Shown here one piece after another: positions 6,231-12,598 of a stretch of 64,000 bases of DNA. Within the stretch, counting starts at the first letter, position 1, and each line of letters opens with the position of its first letter. The DNA is taken from contig JIBW01000002.1 of NCBI GenBank assembly GCA_012970285.1, forward strand, positions 496,001 to 560,000. Reading direction: 5' to 3'. The DNA is from Bacillaceae bacterium JMAK1. Its GTDB lineage: Bacteria > Bacillota > Bacilli > Bacillales > Marinococcaceae. The translations under genes and the position numbers were made by a program. The notes under the pieces were generated by a model that saw only the letters and a list, made by a program, of their open reading frames with translations, did not search any database and was not told the DNA's origin.

Positions 6231-6270
6231 TAGGATGGATTGAGAAGTCCAAGCTGTGGGGTGGGAAGAG

Positions 6271-8964
6271 ATGAAATGGCATCAGATCGATCCGCTTACG
6301 GTCTATAAGAAGTTAAACACGGAAGTGACGACCGGTTTGTCGGAAAAAGAAGCAGAGGAACGACTACACATCCATGGTCAGAATAAACTACAAGAAGAAA
6401 AAGCAACTCCATGGCCGATTTTGTTTTTAGAGCAATTCAAAGATTTTATGGTCATTATTTTGCTCGTTGCAACGTTCGTATCAGGCTTATTAGGCGAATA
6501 CATTGATGCCCTCGTCATTATGGGAATCGTTCTCGTAAACGCCATTCTCGGTTTTGTACAAGAGAGAAAAGCTGAACGGTCGTTAAAAGCGTTAAAAGAA
6601 TTATCCGCTCCAGAAATTACCGTATTTAGAGACGGGAAATGGAAGAACATTGCTTCTCAATATGCCGTTCCAGGGGACGTCGTCCAACTAGAGAACGGGG
6701 ATCGCATTAGCGCAGATATCCGCTTAATCGAGACGATGAGACTTGCGATTGAAGAATCATCGTTAACGGGTGAATCTGTCGCTTCAGAAAAAAATGAGCA
6801 TGTTGTATCAAACAGTGAGGCAGCGCTTGCTGACCAACACAATATGGCGTTTGCCGGCACGATGGTGACGAGAGGACGCGGGAAAGGCGTTATCGTTCAT
6901 ACAGGAATGAAGACGGAAATGGGGAAGATTGCACATTTGTTGCAATCCACTGAAAGTGTCTCCACGCCGTTACAGCGCCGCCTAGAGCAACTAGGTAAAA
7001 TTTTAATTGTCGGTGCGATTTTCTTAACAATTCTAGTCGTTTTACTCGGGATTATGCAAGGACAACCTGCATATGAAATGTTCTTAGCTGGCGTATCGCT
7101 CGCGGTAGCTGCAATTCCAGAAGGGTTACCAGCGATTGTGACCGTCGCACTTGCGCTCGGTGTTCAACGAATGATCCGTCATAAGGCGATTGTAAGACGG
7201 TTGCCAGCAGTTGAGACGCTCGGTTGTGCATCTGTCATCTGTTCAGATAAAACGGGAACCTTAACGAAAAATGATATGACAGTAACAGAACTTTGGACAT
7301 TCTCGCAGCATGTACAAGTTGAAGGTGAAGGCATTGAAGGCAAATTCCTTAGTAACCAAAAACCAGCAAAGGTTCAAAAGGACAGTGAAGATTTACTCAC
7401 CTATGGACTATTGTGCAACAATGCAGAGTTACAACTCGAGACGAACGATCGCAAACAGCACGTGCAAGCTTCGGATCAGTTTACCGTAAGTGGTGAGCCA
7501 ACAGAAGTGGCACTAGCCGTTTCAGCAGCACGTCACAACGTCTATCAGCAGCAATTAACGAACGAGTGGATTCGACTCGATGAAATTCCTTTTGACTCAA
7601 ATCGGAAACGGATGACGGTCATCGTTCGAAATCGCGAAGGACAAAAATTCGTCATTACAAAAGGTGCACCAGACGTCTTAATCTCTCGTTGTACGAGTGT
7701 ACAAATAAGCGGTGAAGTAAAGTCACTTTCAATGATGATGCGCTCCAAATGGGATCAAACGGTAAGTCGCATGGCGAAAAAAGCATTACGTACGATAGCG
7801 GTAGCCGTTCGACCATTGCCAGAGGGAGCAACTGTCGGTCTAGACATTGAACAAGATATGACGTTAATCGGTTTACAAGCGATGATGGACCCGCCAAGAC
7901 CAGATGTGAAAGATGCCATCAAAGAATGTCGTGAAGCCGGCATTAAAACGGTCATGATTACCGGAGACCATGTGGACACTGCAAAAGCGGTCGCAGAGAG
8001 TCTAGACATGCTTCCAGAGCATGGTGCTGTGATGACAGGCACCCAGTTAGATCAACTAAACGAGGGTGAATTGAAAAAGCACGTTGGGAAAACGTACGTG
8101 TTTGCCCGTGTCACACCTGAACATAAGCTCCGAATCGTACAAGCGATGCAACAAAACGGGCATGTTGTTGCGATGACTGGTGATGGCGTGAATGATGCAC
8201 CAGCATTAAAAGCCGCCGATATCGGCGTTGCGATGGGCAAAACGGGAACGGATGTAGCTAAAGAAGCGGCAGCCCTTGTGCTAGCCGATGACCATTTTTC
8301 GACAATCAAAGCTGCAATCGCAGAAGGTCGTACGATTTATGATAATATTCGAAAGTTTATTCGTTATATGCTTGCTTCAAACGTCGGAGAAATACTCGTC
8401 ATGTTGTTTGCACTTTTACTCGGGTTACCATTGCCGCTCGTTGCGATCCAGATCTTGTGGATTAACCTTGTTACCGACGGTTTACCAGCGATGGCACTCG
8501 GTGTTGATCGTGCAGAAAGCGACGTAATGAAACGGGCACCACGACATCCGAGGGAAGGAATTTTTGCGAGAGGTCTCGGTGTTAAGATTATCACTCGCGG
8601 CTTCCTAATTGGTGCGGTTACTCTCATCGGATTTGTCGTCACATTGTACGGAACATCCGGTATTCCAGATTTAACGAAGGCACAGACGGTTGCCTTTACA
8701 ACGCTCGTCGTCGCACAGCTCATTCATGTGTTTGATTGTCGAAGCGAATATTCGGTGTTCCACCGAAATCCGTTTAGCAACAAAGCACTCGTCGTTGCTG
8801 TAGTCTTATCGTTCGTCATGATGCTTGCTGTCATTTATGTACCATTCTTACAACCAATCTTCTATACGACAGCACTTAGCTTGAACGAATGGTTCCTTAT
8901 TGTCGGACTCGCTGCAATCCCAACCGTTGCGTTAAGTTGGTCTGGTCTTAAAAAAGGAGAATAA
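6271..8964 (+). CDS. P-type Ca2+-transporting ATPase (PII type, YloB-like)
   Basis: An 897-residue P2A ATPase that exports Ca2+ (possibly Mn2+) at the expense of ATP. Seen: N-terminal cation-ATPase domain, TGES actuator loop (about residue 168), TM4 ion-site motif AAIPEGLPAIV, phosphorylated aspartate in CSDKTGTLT (about 325), nucleotide-domain KGAPD, MITGDH and hinge MTGDGVNDAPA, then ILWINLVTDGLPA in TM6 with the Asn/Asp ion ligands. Start ATG 6271 (MKWHQ) is preferred to the in-frame GTG at 6256 because it matches YloB-type proteins and follows GGTGGGAAGAG. It is the yloB position in the conserved gene order. Confidence 0.95.
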   Translation: MKWHQIDPLTVYKKLNTEVTTGLSEKEAEERLHIHGQNKLQEEKATPWPILFLEQFKDFMVIILLVATFVSGLLGEYIDALVIMGIVLVNAILGFVQERKAERSLKALKELSAPEITVFRDGKWKNIASQYAVPGDVVQLENGDRISADIRLIETMRLAIEESSLTGESVASEKNEHVVSNSEAALADQHNMAFAGTMVTRGRGKGVIVHTGMKTEMGKIAHLLQSTESVSTPLQRRLEQLGKILIVGAIFLTILVVLLGIMQGQPAYEMFLAGVSLAVAAIPEGLPAIVTVALALGVQRMIRHKAIVRRLPAVETLGCASVICSDKTGTLTKNDMTVTELWTFSQHVQVEGEGIEGKFLSNQKPAKVQKDSEDLLTYGLLCNNAELQLETNDRKQHVQASDQFTVSGEPTEVALAVSAARHNVYQQQLTNEWIRLDEIPFDSNRKRMTVIVRNREGQKFVITKGAPDVLISRCTSVQISGEVKSLSMMMRSKWDQTVSRMAKKALRTIAVAVRPLPEGATVGLDIEQDMTLIGLQAMMDPPRPDVKDAIKECREAGIKTVMITGDHVDTAKAVAESLDMLPEHGAVMTGTQLDQLNEGELKKHVGKTYVFARVTPEHKLRIVQAMQQNGHVVAMTGDGVNDAPALKAADIGVAMGKTGTDVAKEAAALVLADDHFSTIKAAIAEGRTIYDNIRKFIRYMLASNVGEILVMLFALLLGLPLPLVAIQILWINLVTDGLPAMALGVDRAESDVMKRAPRHPREGIFARGLGVKIITRGFLIGAVTLIGFVVTLYGTSGIPDLTKAQTVAFTTLVVAQLIHVFDCRSEYSVFHRNPFSNKALVVAVVLSFVMMLAVIYVPFLQPIFYTTALSLNEWFLIVGLAAIPTVALSWSGLKKGE

Positions 8965-8969
8965 CACGT

Positions 8970-9014
8970 AGAGTTGCCTTAAAAAGTCATTAGACTTTTA
9001 AGGCAACTCTTTTT
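8970..9014 (+). terminator. Intrinsic terminator after the Ca2+ ATPase
   Basis: A long stem (8970-8988 with 8993-9010, one bulged A, loop ATTA) followed by TTTT. Confidence 0.9.
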
Positions 9015-9244
9015 CGCGTAAACGAAAGAATCATCGAAATGTAAGTAGAATGTCGCTTGGGATGGTGAATGCATTGATTATGAAAGCATTTCGTTCTTTT
9101 ATGAGTAGAAGAGGAGTAAATCGTCGTGCGAACGAAGATTCAGCCCACAAAATATGATTTTATAGTAGTTGAAGTTTCAGTAAAATAATTATGTAAACTA
9201 AAAATATTCTCATTATATGTTAAGCTGAATTTAGGTGATTGAGT
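9015..9244. other. Gene-free gap upstream of the reductase gene
   Basis: This AT-rich 230-base stretch has no convincing gene. A 25-codon frame at 9080-9157 lacks a well placed ribosome site. The downstream half probably holds the promoter of the reductase/ligase pair, but I could not find a good -35/-10 pair; TTGAAG near 9168 has no convincing partner. Confidence 0.5.
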
Positions 9245-10045
9245 ATGAAAAATGTACTAGAAACGATCCTTTTCCCAAAAACAAGATTACACGAACGACA
9301 AGTAGAACAGAGGATACATAACAAGACGATCGTCATTACCGGTGCGAGTTCTGGAATTGGTAAAGAAATTGCATTGAAGTTTGCTAACATTACGTGCCAA
9401 TTGGTATTAGTGGCAAGAAACCGTGAACGGTTGGACGACGTAAAACGACTCATAGAACGAAAACAAAAAGCGAAGGTATCGGTCTATTCACTCGATTTAA
9501 GAGATGAAGCTGAGCGTATATGTTTTTTACAGGCAATTCATGAAGAAAATGAATCGATTGATCTATTCGTATCAAACGCAGGGCTTTCGATTCGAAGATC
9601 AATCTATCAGTCTTTGGATCGTTTACATGACGTGCAACGAACGATCAACATTAATTATGAAGCACCAGTTGCGATTGTGATGTCTCTTCTTCCGTTATTA
9701 GAGAAGAATGGTGGTCAGATCGTAAATGTGTCTACCATCAATTGTCAATTACCACCTATGGCTCATTTTTCAGCTTATCAAGCGTCAAAGAGTGCATTTG
9801 ATACATGGCTTCGTTCGGTAACACCGGAAATTCGTAAACGTGGTGTCAACGTTACGAGCATTTACTTGCCGCTCGTTCGTACACAGATGATTGCTCCGAC
9901 AAAGCAATATAATCGAATGCCTGCAATGTCACCAGAGCAAGCAGCGATTAAAGTGATTAACGCAACGATGAAGCAGAAAGCACGCTTTGAGCCGTGGTGG
10001 CTCAAGTTTGCTAAGCTTTATAGTTCAAGAAAAGTGAGCATGTGA
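9245..10045 (+). CDS. Short-chain dehydrogenase/reductase, Acr1-like (putative fatty acyl-CoA reductase)
   Basis: A 266-residue SDR. Seen: Rossmann motif TGASSGIG (about residue 33), VSNAGLS, catalytic serine in VSTIN and YQASK (Tyr-x-x-x-Lys). Beyond the generic SDR signature, the segments GLSIRRSIYQSLDRLHD, TSIYLPLVRTQMIAPTK and SPEQAA closely resemble, from memory, the Acinetobacter Acr1 fatty acyl-CoA reductase and its mycobacterial relatives. The inferred reaction is NADPH-dependent reduction of long acyl-CoA to fatty aldehyde. ATG 9245 is chosen (AGGTGAT 5 bases upstream) over TTG 9239. The next gene encodes an acyl ligase, which could supply the acyl-CoA. The pair is inserted between genes adjacent in B. 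subtilis. Confidence 0.75.
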   Translation: MKNVLETILFPKTRLHERQVEQRIHNKTIVITGASSGIGKEIALKFANITCQLVLVARNRERLDDVKRLIERKQKAKVSVYSLDLRDEAERICFLQAIHEENESIDLFVSNAGLSIRRSIYQSLDRLHDVQRTININYEAPVAIVMSLLPLLEKNGGQIVNVSTINCQLPPMAHFSAYQASKSAFDTWLRSVTPEIRKRGVNVTSIYLPLVRTQMIAPTKQYNRMPAMSPEQAAIKVINATMKQKARFEPWWLKFAKLYSSRKVSM

Positions 10046-10063
10046 CGCGCTCTTGCCGCGTCA
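10043..10063 (+). other. Intercistronic hairpin between reductase and ligase genes
   Basis: TGACGCG pairs with CGCGTCA across a 7-base loop, starting in the reductase stop codon. No U-tract follows, so a role in mRNA stability or in setting the ratio of the two products is more likely than termination. Confidence 0.5.
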
Positions 10064-10081
10064 AGATAAGAGGTGAACACA

Positions 10082-11572
10082 TTGTTTCAACTATTCAAAG
10101 CGTTACATAGTATTCGATTATTAAACCCAAAAGCGATATTTACACTCATTTATTCGTGTGTACGTAGAGGAATTAATCTGATGGCGCTCTTTGAGTTTGC
10201 CAAACGCACATACCGACATGCTCCTATTCTTAGAAGCGACAACGTAGTGTGGAGTTTTGAAGATTTGCATCGTAAAGTGATTACCGTCTCACGGAAATTA
10301 AGCAATCATGAAGTCAACTTAAAAGAAGGAGATAAAGTTGCCCTCGTTGTAACGAACAATACGTCCTTCACGACTCTACTGTTCGCGTGTTCGTCAATCG
10401 GTGTTGATCTATTCTTAATGAATACGTCGATGTCGAATAAGCAGCTTCACGAGTTTTGTACAGAAAACAATGTAAAAGCGATCATTCATGATGATTGTTA
10501 CGAATCGACTGACAACGTGACAGCAATTACAGTTAAAGAAATTGATTACATACCACCGGCTAAGATTCTACCACGCCGAGCACGGACGAATCGTGTTGTT
10601 ATTCCTTCTGGAGGATCAACTGGAAAGGCGAAGGTGATTGCTCACAAACCTTCACTGACGAATTATTTGGCCCCTTTTCGTGCTTTTATTAACGTTTTAA
10701 ACGTTGATCAGCACCAACATGTATACGTCGCGACCCCTATGTATCACGGTTACGGATTTGCCGTCTTTTTATTATGTGTTGCTGCTGGAAAAGAAGTGAT
10801 TGTCGATGAACGGTTTAACGCAAAGATCGTTATGAAACGAATGGCAGAACATAACGTTCACATGTTAATCGTAACCCCAACGATGCTACACGACCTTATC
10901 CAAATTCCAATGCCGAAAAAGCTGAACATTCAGTGCATCGCATCTGGTGGCGCTCCGTTAAACGAACCACTCATAAACCGTGCTACCGAGTTGTTTGGTC
11001 CAGTCGTTCATAATTTATTCGGTACAACTGAAACGGGATTAAACTTTATTGCTAGACCAAGCGATTTACTTCGAGACCCAAGAGCATTAGGCAAACCAAT
11101 TAAAGGAATGAAAGCAAGAGTTGTCAACGCTCGCGGAACGGTAGCAAACAGTCTAGAGACAGGATCACTGCAAATTTTCACGAAGAGCGGCATGGAAAAA
11201 GCAAGGCAAAATTGGTATGCAACAGGAGATCTTGTGGTTCATGATGAAAGAGGATGTTATTACAGTCGAGGAAGAGAAGATGAACAAATTATATCCGGCG
11301 GAATTAACGTCTATCCAATTGAATTAGAACAACTTCTACACGAACATGAGCAAGTCGAGCGCGTGGCTGTCATCGGTATTCCTGATGAGCGTTTTGGTGA
11401 GCGACTACACGCATTTATCGAGCCTAAAGTAAACGCGTTGACAGAAGAAGAGGTACGACGATGGCTGAAAGAACGAGCAAGGCGAGAATTGATGCCGAAG
11501 GAAATAACCTTCCGTTCAAAGCTTCCCTATGAACGAACTGGAAAAGTAAACAAAAAGAACTTACTTAATTGA
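10082..11572 (+). CDS. AMP-forming acyl-CoA synthetase (ANL superfamily)
   Basis: A 496-residue adenylate-forming ligase. Seen: a divergent P-loop PSGGSTGKAK (about 175-184; the family consensus is TSGTTGKPK), PMYHGYG, the A5 motif FGTTETG, A7 YATGD, hinge/A8 GREDEQIISGGINVYP and the A10 lysine in RTGKVNKK. The complete motif set suggests an active enzyme that activates a carboxylic acid, probably a fatty acid, to acyl-AMP and then acyl-CoA. The start is taken as TTG 10082, 5 bases after GAGGTGA; the in-frame GTG at 10073 lies inside that ribosome site. It forms a two-gene unit with the Acr1-like reductase upstream. The substrate chain length cannot be read from sequence. Confidence 0.82.
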   Translation: MFQLFKALHSIRLLNPKAIFTLIYSCVRRGINLMALFEFAKRTYRHAPILRSDNVVWSFEDLHRKVITVSRKLSNHEVNLKEGDKVALVVTNNTSFTTLLFACSSIGVDLFLMNTSMSNKQLHEFCTENNVKAIIHDDCYESTDNVTAITVKEIDYIPPAKILPRRARTNRVVIPSGGSTGKAKVIAHKPSLTNYLAPFRAFINVLNVDQHQHVYVATPMYHGYGFAVFLLCVAAGKEVIVDERFNAKIVMKRMAEHNVHMLIVTPTMLHDLIQIPMPKKLNIQCIASGGAPLNEPLINRATELFGPVVHNLFGTTETGLNFIARPSDLLRDPRALGKPIKGMKARVVNARGTVANSLETGSLQIFTKSGMEKARQNWYATGDLVVHDERGCYYSRGREDEQIISGGINVYPIELEQLLHEHEQVERVAVIGIPDERFGERLHAFIEPKVNALTEEEVRRWLKERARRELMPKEITFRSKLPYERTGKVNKKNLLN

Positions 11573-11575
11573 ACA

Positions 11576-11607
11576 CAAAAAGCAAGATTCTAAGGAATCT
11601 CGCTTTC
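11576..11607. terminator. Bidirectional terminator between the ligase and vanW-like genes
   Basis: A 12-bp stem with one mismatch (11579-11590 with 11595-11606, loop TAAG). A-rich sequence on the left and the TTT on the right allow use from both strands. Confidence 0.75.
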
Positions 11608-11618
11608 ATAAAACACTC

Positions 11619-12524
11619 TTAAATGCTCTCTGCAGCCGTTACTTCAAAGGTCACTTGCCCGCTTGACGCATCAACAGAACCGGTAATCATAACAGGGAAG
11701 TCATGACCGTTCTCAAACTTAAAGTCCGCCCATCCCCAACTGACCATCGCATCGTCACCTTCTGGTACGTAACTAATCGGTAACGAATGATGATGACGTT
11801 CAACAATGTCCAGTCCTGCGCGTTCAACGGCATTGTAAAGGGTCGTAGACGTTTGGCAAATACCGCCACCCATGCCATTTGTAAATTCCCCATCAACAAT
11901 TACATTGGCTTCTTGGTAGCCACGTTCTGCAGTGGCAGGTCCCACGACTTCATGGAAAGAAAAGCGGTCGCCAGGACCTAAGACAGAACGGTGAATGCTT
12001 TCGGTTGATAAGCGAATGTTCTCAACTCTTCCCGTCGTACTGGCATCAAAAGACGTTGAAAATGATCCGATCGTCTGATCGGCTATGGCTTGTAGATCAT
12101 CGTCGGTCACATTTGGGGAGGTAACTTCGATCGGTAGTTTAATAGAATCATGATAATACGAATGATTCAATATATTCTCAACGAGCGCGTTTTCGTCTAA
12201 GATTACTTGGTCTTGACCGCCCTCAACTTGGCCGTCAATGTTCTTAGGGGTTTTCATTGATTGATCATAACCATTCTCGCCACGGGCGAGTTCTGTTGCA
12301 AAAGAGCGTAACTCATCTTCTTGCAATTCATCTCGTGAAAATTCTACATGAAAATCTTCATCGTTTTCGTCATAAACACTCACTTTATGAGTTGGAGTTT
12401 CACGTAATTCGTGAAGTGATTTCTCTCCAAATATAGGTGCGCTTGCCATGACTTCTTCATCTGCACCACAAGCACTACTTAGTACGAAAATTCCTACAAT
12501 AGGCAATAGACATAACCGTTTCAT
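11619..12524 (-). CDS. VanW-domain lipoprotein (YoaR/VanW family)
   Basis: A 301-residue predicted lipoprotein. Seen: a hydrophobic signal peptide ending in lipobox LSSAC (Cys near residue 19), an N-terminal putative peptidoglycan-binding region, then a VanW domain: LGPGDRFSFHEVVGP, GGGICQTSTTLYNAV and a HHHSLPISYVPEG segment. VanW proteins occur in some vancomycin-resistance clusters and in many spore formers, but their biochemical role is not settled; an envelope location is inferred here. ATG 12524 is chosen because it follows GGAGGGG and begins the signal peptide; the upstream in-frame ATG at 12539 would overlap that site. It is transcribed alone, convergent with the acyl ligase. Confidence 0.88.
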   Translation of the reverse strand: MKRLCLLPIVGIFVLSSACGADEEVMASAPIFGEKSLHELRETPTHKVSVYDENDEDFHVEFSRDELQEDELRSFATELARGENGYDQSMKTPKNIDGQVEGGQDQVILDENALVENILNHSYYHDSIKLPIEVTSPNVTDDDLQAIADQTIGSFSTSFDASTTGRVENIRLSTESIHRSVLGPGDRFSFHEVVGPATAERGYQEANVIVDGEFTNGMGGGICQTSTTLYNAVERAGLDIVERHHHSLPISYVPEGDDAMVSWGWADFKFENGHDFPVMITGSVDASSGQVTFEVTAAESI

Positions 12525-12598
12525 ACGATTCCCCTCCATAGAACTTGGTCGTAGTATAGACGTTTCAAATCGGGAAAAGTTTCACATCTTTTCTACTT

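Follow-up and report, generated by a model that had tools for sequence, protein, structure and literature searches.

A short-chain dehydrogenase/reductase (SDR) gene and an AMP-forming ligase gene lie one directly after the other in a 64,000-nucleotide stretch of Bacillaceae bacterium JMAK1 (contig JIBW01000002.1, positions 496,001 to 560,000 of the forward strand; hereafter the window, with coordinates counted from its first letter). Sequence comparison indicates that the two genes are almost certainly one functional unit in Bacilli, and that this pair probably reduces a fatty acid to an aldehyde. The SDR gene (9245-10045, + strand) is a complete open reading frame (ORF) of 266 aa with its ATG start at 9245 behind AGGTGA; an in-frame TTG at 9239 is a possible alternative. 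The ligase gene (10082-11572, + strand) is also complete, with 496 aa counted from TTG 10082, the likeliest start, which stands behind AGAGGTG; GTG 10073 falls within that site. The two genes are spaced by 36 bases. Both reading frames are intact, as an initial annotation of this DNA had it when it placed an SDR directly before a complete AMP-forming ligase. In the proposed scheme the ligase would adenylate a free carboxylic acid (a fatty acid being the likeliest) and convert it with ATP and CoA to acyl-CoA. The SDR, a predicted NADPH-dependent acyl-CoA (thioester) reductase, would then reduce the acyl-CoA to the aldehyde, perhaps further to the alcohol. Together the two proteins would do the job of one carboxylic acid reductase (CAR), in a split, CoA-dependent form.

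The functional link between the two genes was supported by their co-occurrence. We searched 398 genomes of the window's class, which we take to be Bacilli, and scored the top six SDR and top three ligase candidates per genome. The SDR scored 332-437 bits in 35 genomes, with further matches at or below 174 bits; the ligase scored 351-756 bits in 35 genomes, and the further matches listed were at or below 318 bits. Among the resulting 36 carriers, 34 had both genes (Fisher P = 6e-47, with no correction for kinship); in each of the 34 the two shared a contig and a strand and the ligase followed the SDR, and the high-scoring ligases of this sample occurred with the SDR. The functional link drawn in the initial annotation thus stands, and the pair is not rare, with the SDR in 35 of the 398 genomes and both genes in 34. 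In the SDR-only genome (G154) a divergent, shorter ligase adjoins the SDR. In the ligase-only genome (G354, locus L186) the ligase is cut beside apparent IS21-type genes (judged from ORFs), and the stretch holds no SDR. All 30 class loci that were fetched had a ligase match downstream of the SDR, and among 81 relatives of the window genome the SDR was found in six and the ligase in the same six.

A single scan of genome contigs provided a wider comparison, from which the best 80 loci were named and inspected with flanks of up to 6 kb. Fourteen of these carried SDRs like that of the window (pair-type) with a ligase directly downstream. No ligase was found within those flanks at the 20 loci of the type of the Acinetobacter reductase Acr1 (Acr1-type), nor did any of the 46 other loci have an adjacent ligase (L096 had a weak match 1.4 kb off). 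Nine further loci from the Acr1-type half of the SDR tree, three of them repeating named loci, also showed no adjacent ligase (0/9). Six of 15 loci offer a candidate start for the ligase that would give a 4-base overlap with the SDR stop. Distances among the SDRs and among the ligases were correlated (Mantel r = 0.86, 18 pairs, 0 of 10,000 permutations). When 165 ORFs from 16 pair neighbourhoods were clustered in search of a third conserved gene, only the SDR and ligase families occurred in more than two loci.

In Nocardia jejuensis (L217, 1441-4428, - strand) a single 996-aa frame matches adh_short and then AMP-binding and AMP-binding_C, and is a candidate natural fusion of an Acr1-type SDR with a FadD-type ligase. 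Open-frame lengths had hinted at more fusions, but L245 and L246 each proved to hold two separate ORFs (434 and 541 aa), and L217 is therefore the sole fusion that stands. These last two loci, L245 (1504-4041, - strand) and L246 (1459-3996, + strand) from two actinobacterial genomes of the same family as Nocardia jejuensis, encode an SDR resembling the mycobacterial reductase FCR2, with a canonical active-site loop and 74% identity to L108, and a similar FadD-type ligase 165 bases downstream. L245 was placed in the other half of the SDR tree from the window, and L246 reads identically at the loop. They are a second, separate case of SDR-ligase partnership. According to PMC3522743, FCR1 and FCR2 use NADPH for the reduction of fatty acyl-CoA, and alcohol is also formed. 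The occurrence of FCR2-like SDRs beside a ligase of the same family in two genomes supports the proposed chemistry.

The SDR matched adh_short in Pfam (6.2e-39) and has the classical-SDR motifs TGASSGIG, SNAG and Y178-x3-K182. Its predicted model (pLDDT, the predicted local distance difference test score, 94) had classical SDRs as nearest folds. The top curated NCBIfam model was PRK07201 at 242 bits, aligned over model positions 357-592 only, that is, the C-terminal SDR half of two-domain reductases. PRK05866 (211 bits) and a third model (132 bits) were the runners-up. The best match is therefore not an ordinary ketoacyl or sugar reductase, the outcome that would have told against the initial annotation. 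The same two models lead for the Acinetobacter proteins L024 and L036 (PRK07201 403-404 bits, PRK05866 311-316 bits). A two-domain protein from Solimonas, in which NAD_binding_4 precedes the SDR, passes PRK07201 at 850 bits; this N-terminal domain of the PRK07201 type had no match in the window SDR in the Pfam scan.

The final SDR tree comprised 69 rows with two support values. An intermediate tree had dropped ten rows of the first tree (three near-duplicates and seven ordinary SDRs, mostly long branches) and added L217; the final tree added L132, L185 and L245. Pair-type, Acr1-type, FCR-like and two-domain SDRs formed one superclade against the ordinary SDRs with support of 100/100, and this split was the same in the two earlier trees, which had fewer rows of interest. 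Within the superclade the window's half was supported at 98/99 and the other main half at 99/94, with rows L054 and L134 beside both halves. The Acr1-type, FCR-like and two-domain proteins fell in one half and the window SDR in the other, and on this tree the window SDR is therefore placed as sister to the group to which the tested enzymes belong. The 22 rows of the window's half comprise 20 SDRs with a neighbouring ligase, the fused protein and one SDR that stands alone. The label 'pair', assigned by adjacency, needed one change on the intermediate tree against a mean of 16.7 for shuffled labels (0 of 500).

The window SDR is 40% identical to an SDR of A. baumannii (L024), which we labelled Acr1-type by its genus and identity profile and not by its record name. 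The segments that the initial annotation had likened to Acr1 were genuine, since L024 has SIRR, YDRFHD, PLVRTPMIAPTK and SPEQAA at the same alignment columns. Residues in common were examined in an alignment of 20 pair-type, 26 Acr1-type and 25 ordinary SDRs, with L054, L134, L105 and L004 left out. Eighteen signature sites had one residue in at least 80% of both pair-type and Acr1-type SDRs and in at most 40% of ordinary SDRs, and all 18 are present in the window SDR. They include R118, R126, D129, D186, L210, M215, P218 and P226, and fall in SIRxSxxxxxxRxHDxxRT, Y138, D186 and LVRTxMIxP, the stretches singled out in the initial annotation, plus a few positions nearby. Tyr178 was conserved in every row of the alignment and Lys182 in nearly all. 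Arg58, after strand 2, was found in 20/20 pair-type and 26/26 Acr1-type SDRs. In the SDR family an Arg at this place predicts the use of NADP(H), and NADPH use is therefore predicted for the window SDR. The kinship with Acr1 asserted in the initial annotation thus holds at the level of the common superclade and the signature sites; the SDR itself belongs to a sister clade whose catalytic loop differs.

The ligase matched AMP-binding (7e-37) and AMP-binding_C (5.4e-14) in Pfam and retains the P-loop, A5, A7, A8 and A10 motifs, including the A10 Lys. A quick ligase tree, with support from the Shimodaira-Hasegawa-like approximate likelihood ratio test (SH-aLRT), gave a 41-row clade at 100 made up of all 30 pair ligases in the tree, the fused one and ten actinobacterial ligases, separate from 16 other class ligases and 12 others. 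The model scan covered five of these ten actinobacterial and three of the 16 other class ligases. Among the actinobacterial ligases scanned, L206 and L208 passed the FadD12 cut-off, L212 passed that of FadD2, and L211 and L226 ranked these models first. For the three other class ligases the leading model was PRK06187 or one for a Staphylococcus FadD. None of the three paired ligases scanned reached the FadD2 or FadD12 cut-off (window ligase, 210 of 875 and 184 of 850 bits, respectively), and the pair ligase of M. asiaticum reached 939 of 987 bits against PRK13383. The ligase of Edaphocola (L064, 6837-8228) is truncated, without the lysine region of the C-terminus, and its P-loop is altered, while its SDR partner is complete; judging by these changes it may be inactive.

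Taken together, the sequences show two intact enzymes of these families with near-obligate linkage in the class sampled, their joint transfer between phyla, and signature residues in common with tested acyl-CoA reductases. From these we infer the reaction, its direction, the chain length, the use of NADPH (from Arg58) and the use made of the aldehyde; the product would be an aldehyde or an alcohol.

Several observations weigh against this reading. The catalytic site of the SDR departs from that of the Acr1-type. In the window the stretch S163-T164 ... Y178 ... K182 (9731-9790, + strand) is one residue longer than usual between T164, at the canonical Ser position, and Tyr178, and neither the canonical Ser nor the loop length of the Acr1-type is matched. 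The extra residue was found in 20/20 pair-type SDRs, 0/26 Acr1-type and 0/25 ordinary SDRs, as well as in 30/30 class loci fetched (L141 and L147 among them), in L185 and in the solitary clade member L132. Exceptions to this pattern are the fused Nocardia protein at the clade base, which has the usual length, and L134, which lies outside the clade and has the extra residue; L054 does not have it. The canonical Ser position is occupied by Thr in 13, Ser in four, Ala in two and Gly in one of the 20 pair-type SDRs, and S163, one residue before, is Ser in all 20. The C-terminal tail of the A. baumannii protein is about 45 residues longer than that of the window SDR. The window SDR is also under the curated full-length cut-off of PRK07201 (242 vs 549 bits), as is the A. 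baumannii protein (403 vs 549). To our knowledge no member of the window SDR's clade has been assayed, and PMC11948995 warns that Acr1 homologues at a distance from Acr1 itself may serve another function.

Further points of this kind come from the ligase and from the neighbourhoods. The models that match the window ligase are near-equal (PRK06187 226, PRK13383 212, FadD2 210, menE 202 bits), its best score is under the curated NCBIfam cut-off (226 vs 476 bits), and the nearest solved structures are o-succinylbenzoate ligases. The close scores and these structures therefore leave a fatty substrate for the window ligase unsettled. No neighbour gene in the 16 clustered pair neighbourhoods points to a use of the aldehyde. 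Actinomycetota relatives of the ligase occur without such an SDR: 9 of 10 unfused loci had no SDR match, and one had a weak match of 77 bits. Finally, L132 of Nocardia jejuensis (1450-2283, + strand) belongs to the pair clade and has the longer loop, but no ligase was matched in the roughly 1.4 kb around it. An exclusive linkage of the ligase to the pair clade is ruled out by L132 and by L245 and L246, where an FCR2-like SDR has one.

Other functions were considered for the pair. It might activate and reduce an acid other than an ordinary fatty acid (isoprenoid, aromatic, branched or hydroxy), with a private ligase because such a substrate is not provided by the cell's general fatty acyl-CoA synthetases. 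The adjacency of a ligase to pair-type SDRs, with Acr1-type SDRs mostly lacking one (0/20 named and 0/9 further loci), hints at such a substrate, and the structural neighbours of the SDR model, which include 11beta-HSD1 and farnesol dehydrogenase 7w61, point the same way, as do the o-succinylbenzoate ligases nearest to the ligase. We nevertheless regard this as a possibility of the minor sort, given that the ligase shares its clade at 100 with actinobacterial ligases, three of which passed the FadD12 or FadD2 cut-off when scanned, and that the signature sites are common to fatty acyl-CoA reductases. A private ligase might also reflect a host without a suitable synthetase or a direct hand-over of acyl-CoA, and the evidence favours none of the three. 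A catabolic role, in which the SDR would oxidise an alcohol or aldehyde and the ligase would activate the resulting acid, is unlikely. SDR reactions are reversible and a patchy, mobile distribution would suit a niche trait, but Arg58 predicts NADP(H), no catabolic neighbour genes are common to the pair loci (16 neighbourhoods), and the tested relatives reduce acyl-CoA (PMC5806253 and PMC3522743). In the former, Acr1 and its homologue Ramo yield fatty aldehyde.

That the SDR is an ordinary keto- or hydroxyacyl reductase standing by chance beside a ligase is very unlikely. Its fold is that of a classical SDR, as this explanation would have it; against it stand the clade split at 100/100, leading models (PRK07201 242, PRK05866 211 bits, the third 132) that are the same two leaders as for the Acr1-type, and the linkage in 34/36 carriers. 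On the trees and the signature sites an ordinary-SDR identity was rejected. An OleC/OleD-type pairing, considered as a further candidate, was set aside because the window SDR is classical. A wax-ester pathway as in Acinetobacter, which had also been raised in the initial annotation, is improbable in the extreme. Relatives feed wax synthesis in Acinetobacter and mycobacteria (PMC5806253 and PMC3522743), and wax ester synthase/diacylglycerol acyltransferase (WS/DGAT) was found in 4 of the 14 pair carriers searched, namely two mycobacteria, Nocardia jejuensis and the metagenome-assembled genome (MAG) BWSM_10. It was also present in all three non-pair genomes searched. The WS/DGAT domain (PF03007) had no match in the other 10 of 14 carriers, which are the window's genome (G000), six other Bacilli, Limnobaculum, Edaphocola and MAG KLAP112. 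Wax esters are therefore unlikely in the window's organism.

The pair was found in five phyla: that of the window, Bacteroidota, Actinomycetota, Deinococcota and Pseudomonadota. By their taxon codes the 35 SDR carriers of the class fall in 8 families and 15 genera, and a Deinococcus plasmid carries the pair. In the SDR tree Limnobaculum (Pseudomonadota), Edaphocola, a Bacteroidota MAG and eleven rows of the window's phylum formed one clade (100/99), apart from Deinococcus and Actinomycetota. Two genomes of the window's genus (G001 and G002) have the pair at the same site as the window. In a third (G003) yloB is followed by a vanW-like gene and then yicC, with no pair between, and the pair therefore most likely entered the yloB-yicC site within the genus. 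G003 has a distant version of the pair elsewhere (L188, contig 33, 42000-48500), with its SDR split over two ORFs. yloB adjoins yicC in G005, G007, G010 and G012; the 1.5 kb around yicC showed no yloB in G004, and yicC itself was not matched in G013. The occurrence in five phyla, the lack of a common third gene and the pair-free site in the same genus together indicate, at the level of sequence, a moving two-gene cassette that has been transferred jointly between phyla. The base composition gave no sign of recent arrival, with 40.7% GC in the SDR and 41.7% in the ligase against a mean of 42.8% (standard deviation 1.5) for 2.3-kb stretches of the window. Decay of the pair is seen as well, with an interrupted or shortened ligase in G145, G284, G338, G345 and G002; some of these defects and of the split SDR in G003 may be assembly errors. 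In G345 (L187) an apparent IS3-type element, its type judged from ORFs, lies inside the ligase.

The pair is flanked by yloB (6256-8964) and yicC (from 12756 onward), the neighbours given in the initial annotation, which had missed a vanW-like gene (11619-12539, - strand, 306 aa, VanW domain PF04294) between the ligase and yicC. Downstream of yloB a terminator-like hairpin with a T-run (TTTTT) was found at 8970-9014 (+ strand), which sets the pair apart from transcription coming from upstream; its predicted RNA fold reached -24.7 kcal/mol (z = -7.8), a value that none of 200 shuffled sequences equalled. A second hairpin, not assigned to a strand, lies at 11579-11606 between the convergent ligase and vanW-like genes (-11.6 kcal/mol, z = -5.5). 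With these hairpins closing yloB and following the ligase, the pair is probably its own transcription unit, in agreement with the two-gene operon first proposed. A simple consensus terminator scan reported neither hairpin, and a promoter scan was uninformative (13 found vs 8.3 expected). The vanW-like gene is also present in G001, G002 and G003 of the same genus, whereas the yloB-yicC interval of G007 and G012 showed none. Its score is far under the cut-offs for vanW resistance-accessory proteins.

These findings give a testable function to genes for which an annotated record has no more than 'SDR family NAD(P)-dependent oxidoreductase' and 'AMP-binding protein', both present in 34 of the 398 sampled class genomes. 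If the proposed function is true, carriers produce fatty aldehydes or alcohols, and do so without WS/DGAT in those Bacilli that were tested, while a compact, carrier-free module from acid to aldehyde could serve as a biocatalyst. An enzymological question is also raised, namely how an SDR functions with Thr, Ala or Gly at the canonical Ser position and a loop one residue longer. We advance only tentatively, at somewhat short of even confidence, the fuller picture of a mobile, carrier-free split CAR, with a reductase clade whose active-site loop has been rebuilt, that provides many Bacilli, as well as scattered Bacteroidota, Actinomycetota, Deinococcota and Pseudomonadota, with an undescribed product derived from fatty aldehyde or alcohol other than wax esters.

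CARs convert an acid to an aldehyde via an adenylate and a thioester. This overall chemistry is the one proposed for the pair, which differs in being two proteins with a classical SDR and no carrier domain in the Pfam scan. The known routes named in PMC11948995 are FarA, AcrB and Acr1, to which FcrA is added. With the Acr1-type of Acinetobacter the window SDR has the superclade, 40% identity to the A. baumannii protein and the signature residues in common; it differs in its sister clade, longer Ser-Tyr loop, shorter C-terminus and own adjacent ligase, which the Acinetobacter genes lack. The two-domain fatty acyl-CoA reductases (NAD_binding_4 plus SDR; PRK07201; FCR1/AcrA1 and Marinobacter types) belong to the same superclade, and it is to the SDR half at their C-terminus that the top curated match was made, whereas the window SDR has no N-terminal Male-sterility-type domain and its partner is an AMP ligase. 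The FCR2-type mycobacterial reductase is, like the window SDR, a stand-alone SDR of the superclade, and two genomes have an FCR2-like SDR with a ligase downstream; the FCR2-like proteins (L108 and L109 being so termed by length and identity, not by name) lie in the other half of the tree and have the canonical loop. The paired ligases share their 41-row clade at 100 with members that pass the FadD2 or FadD12 cut-offs (L206, L208 and L212), whereas the paired ligases scanned fall below these cut-offs and the high-scorers of the class occur with the SDR. In the open-licence literature we found no paper on an SDR-ligase pair of this kind, judging by titles and the opening lines of abstracts, which is a weak negative. 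The enzyme families are known; what seems new is their tight linkage in a mobile pair, together with the change in the active site.

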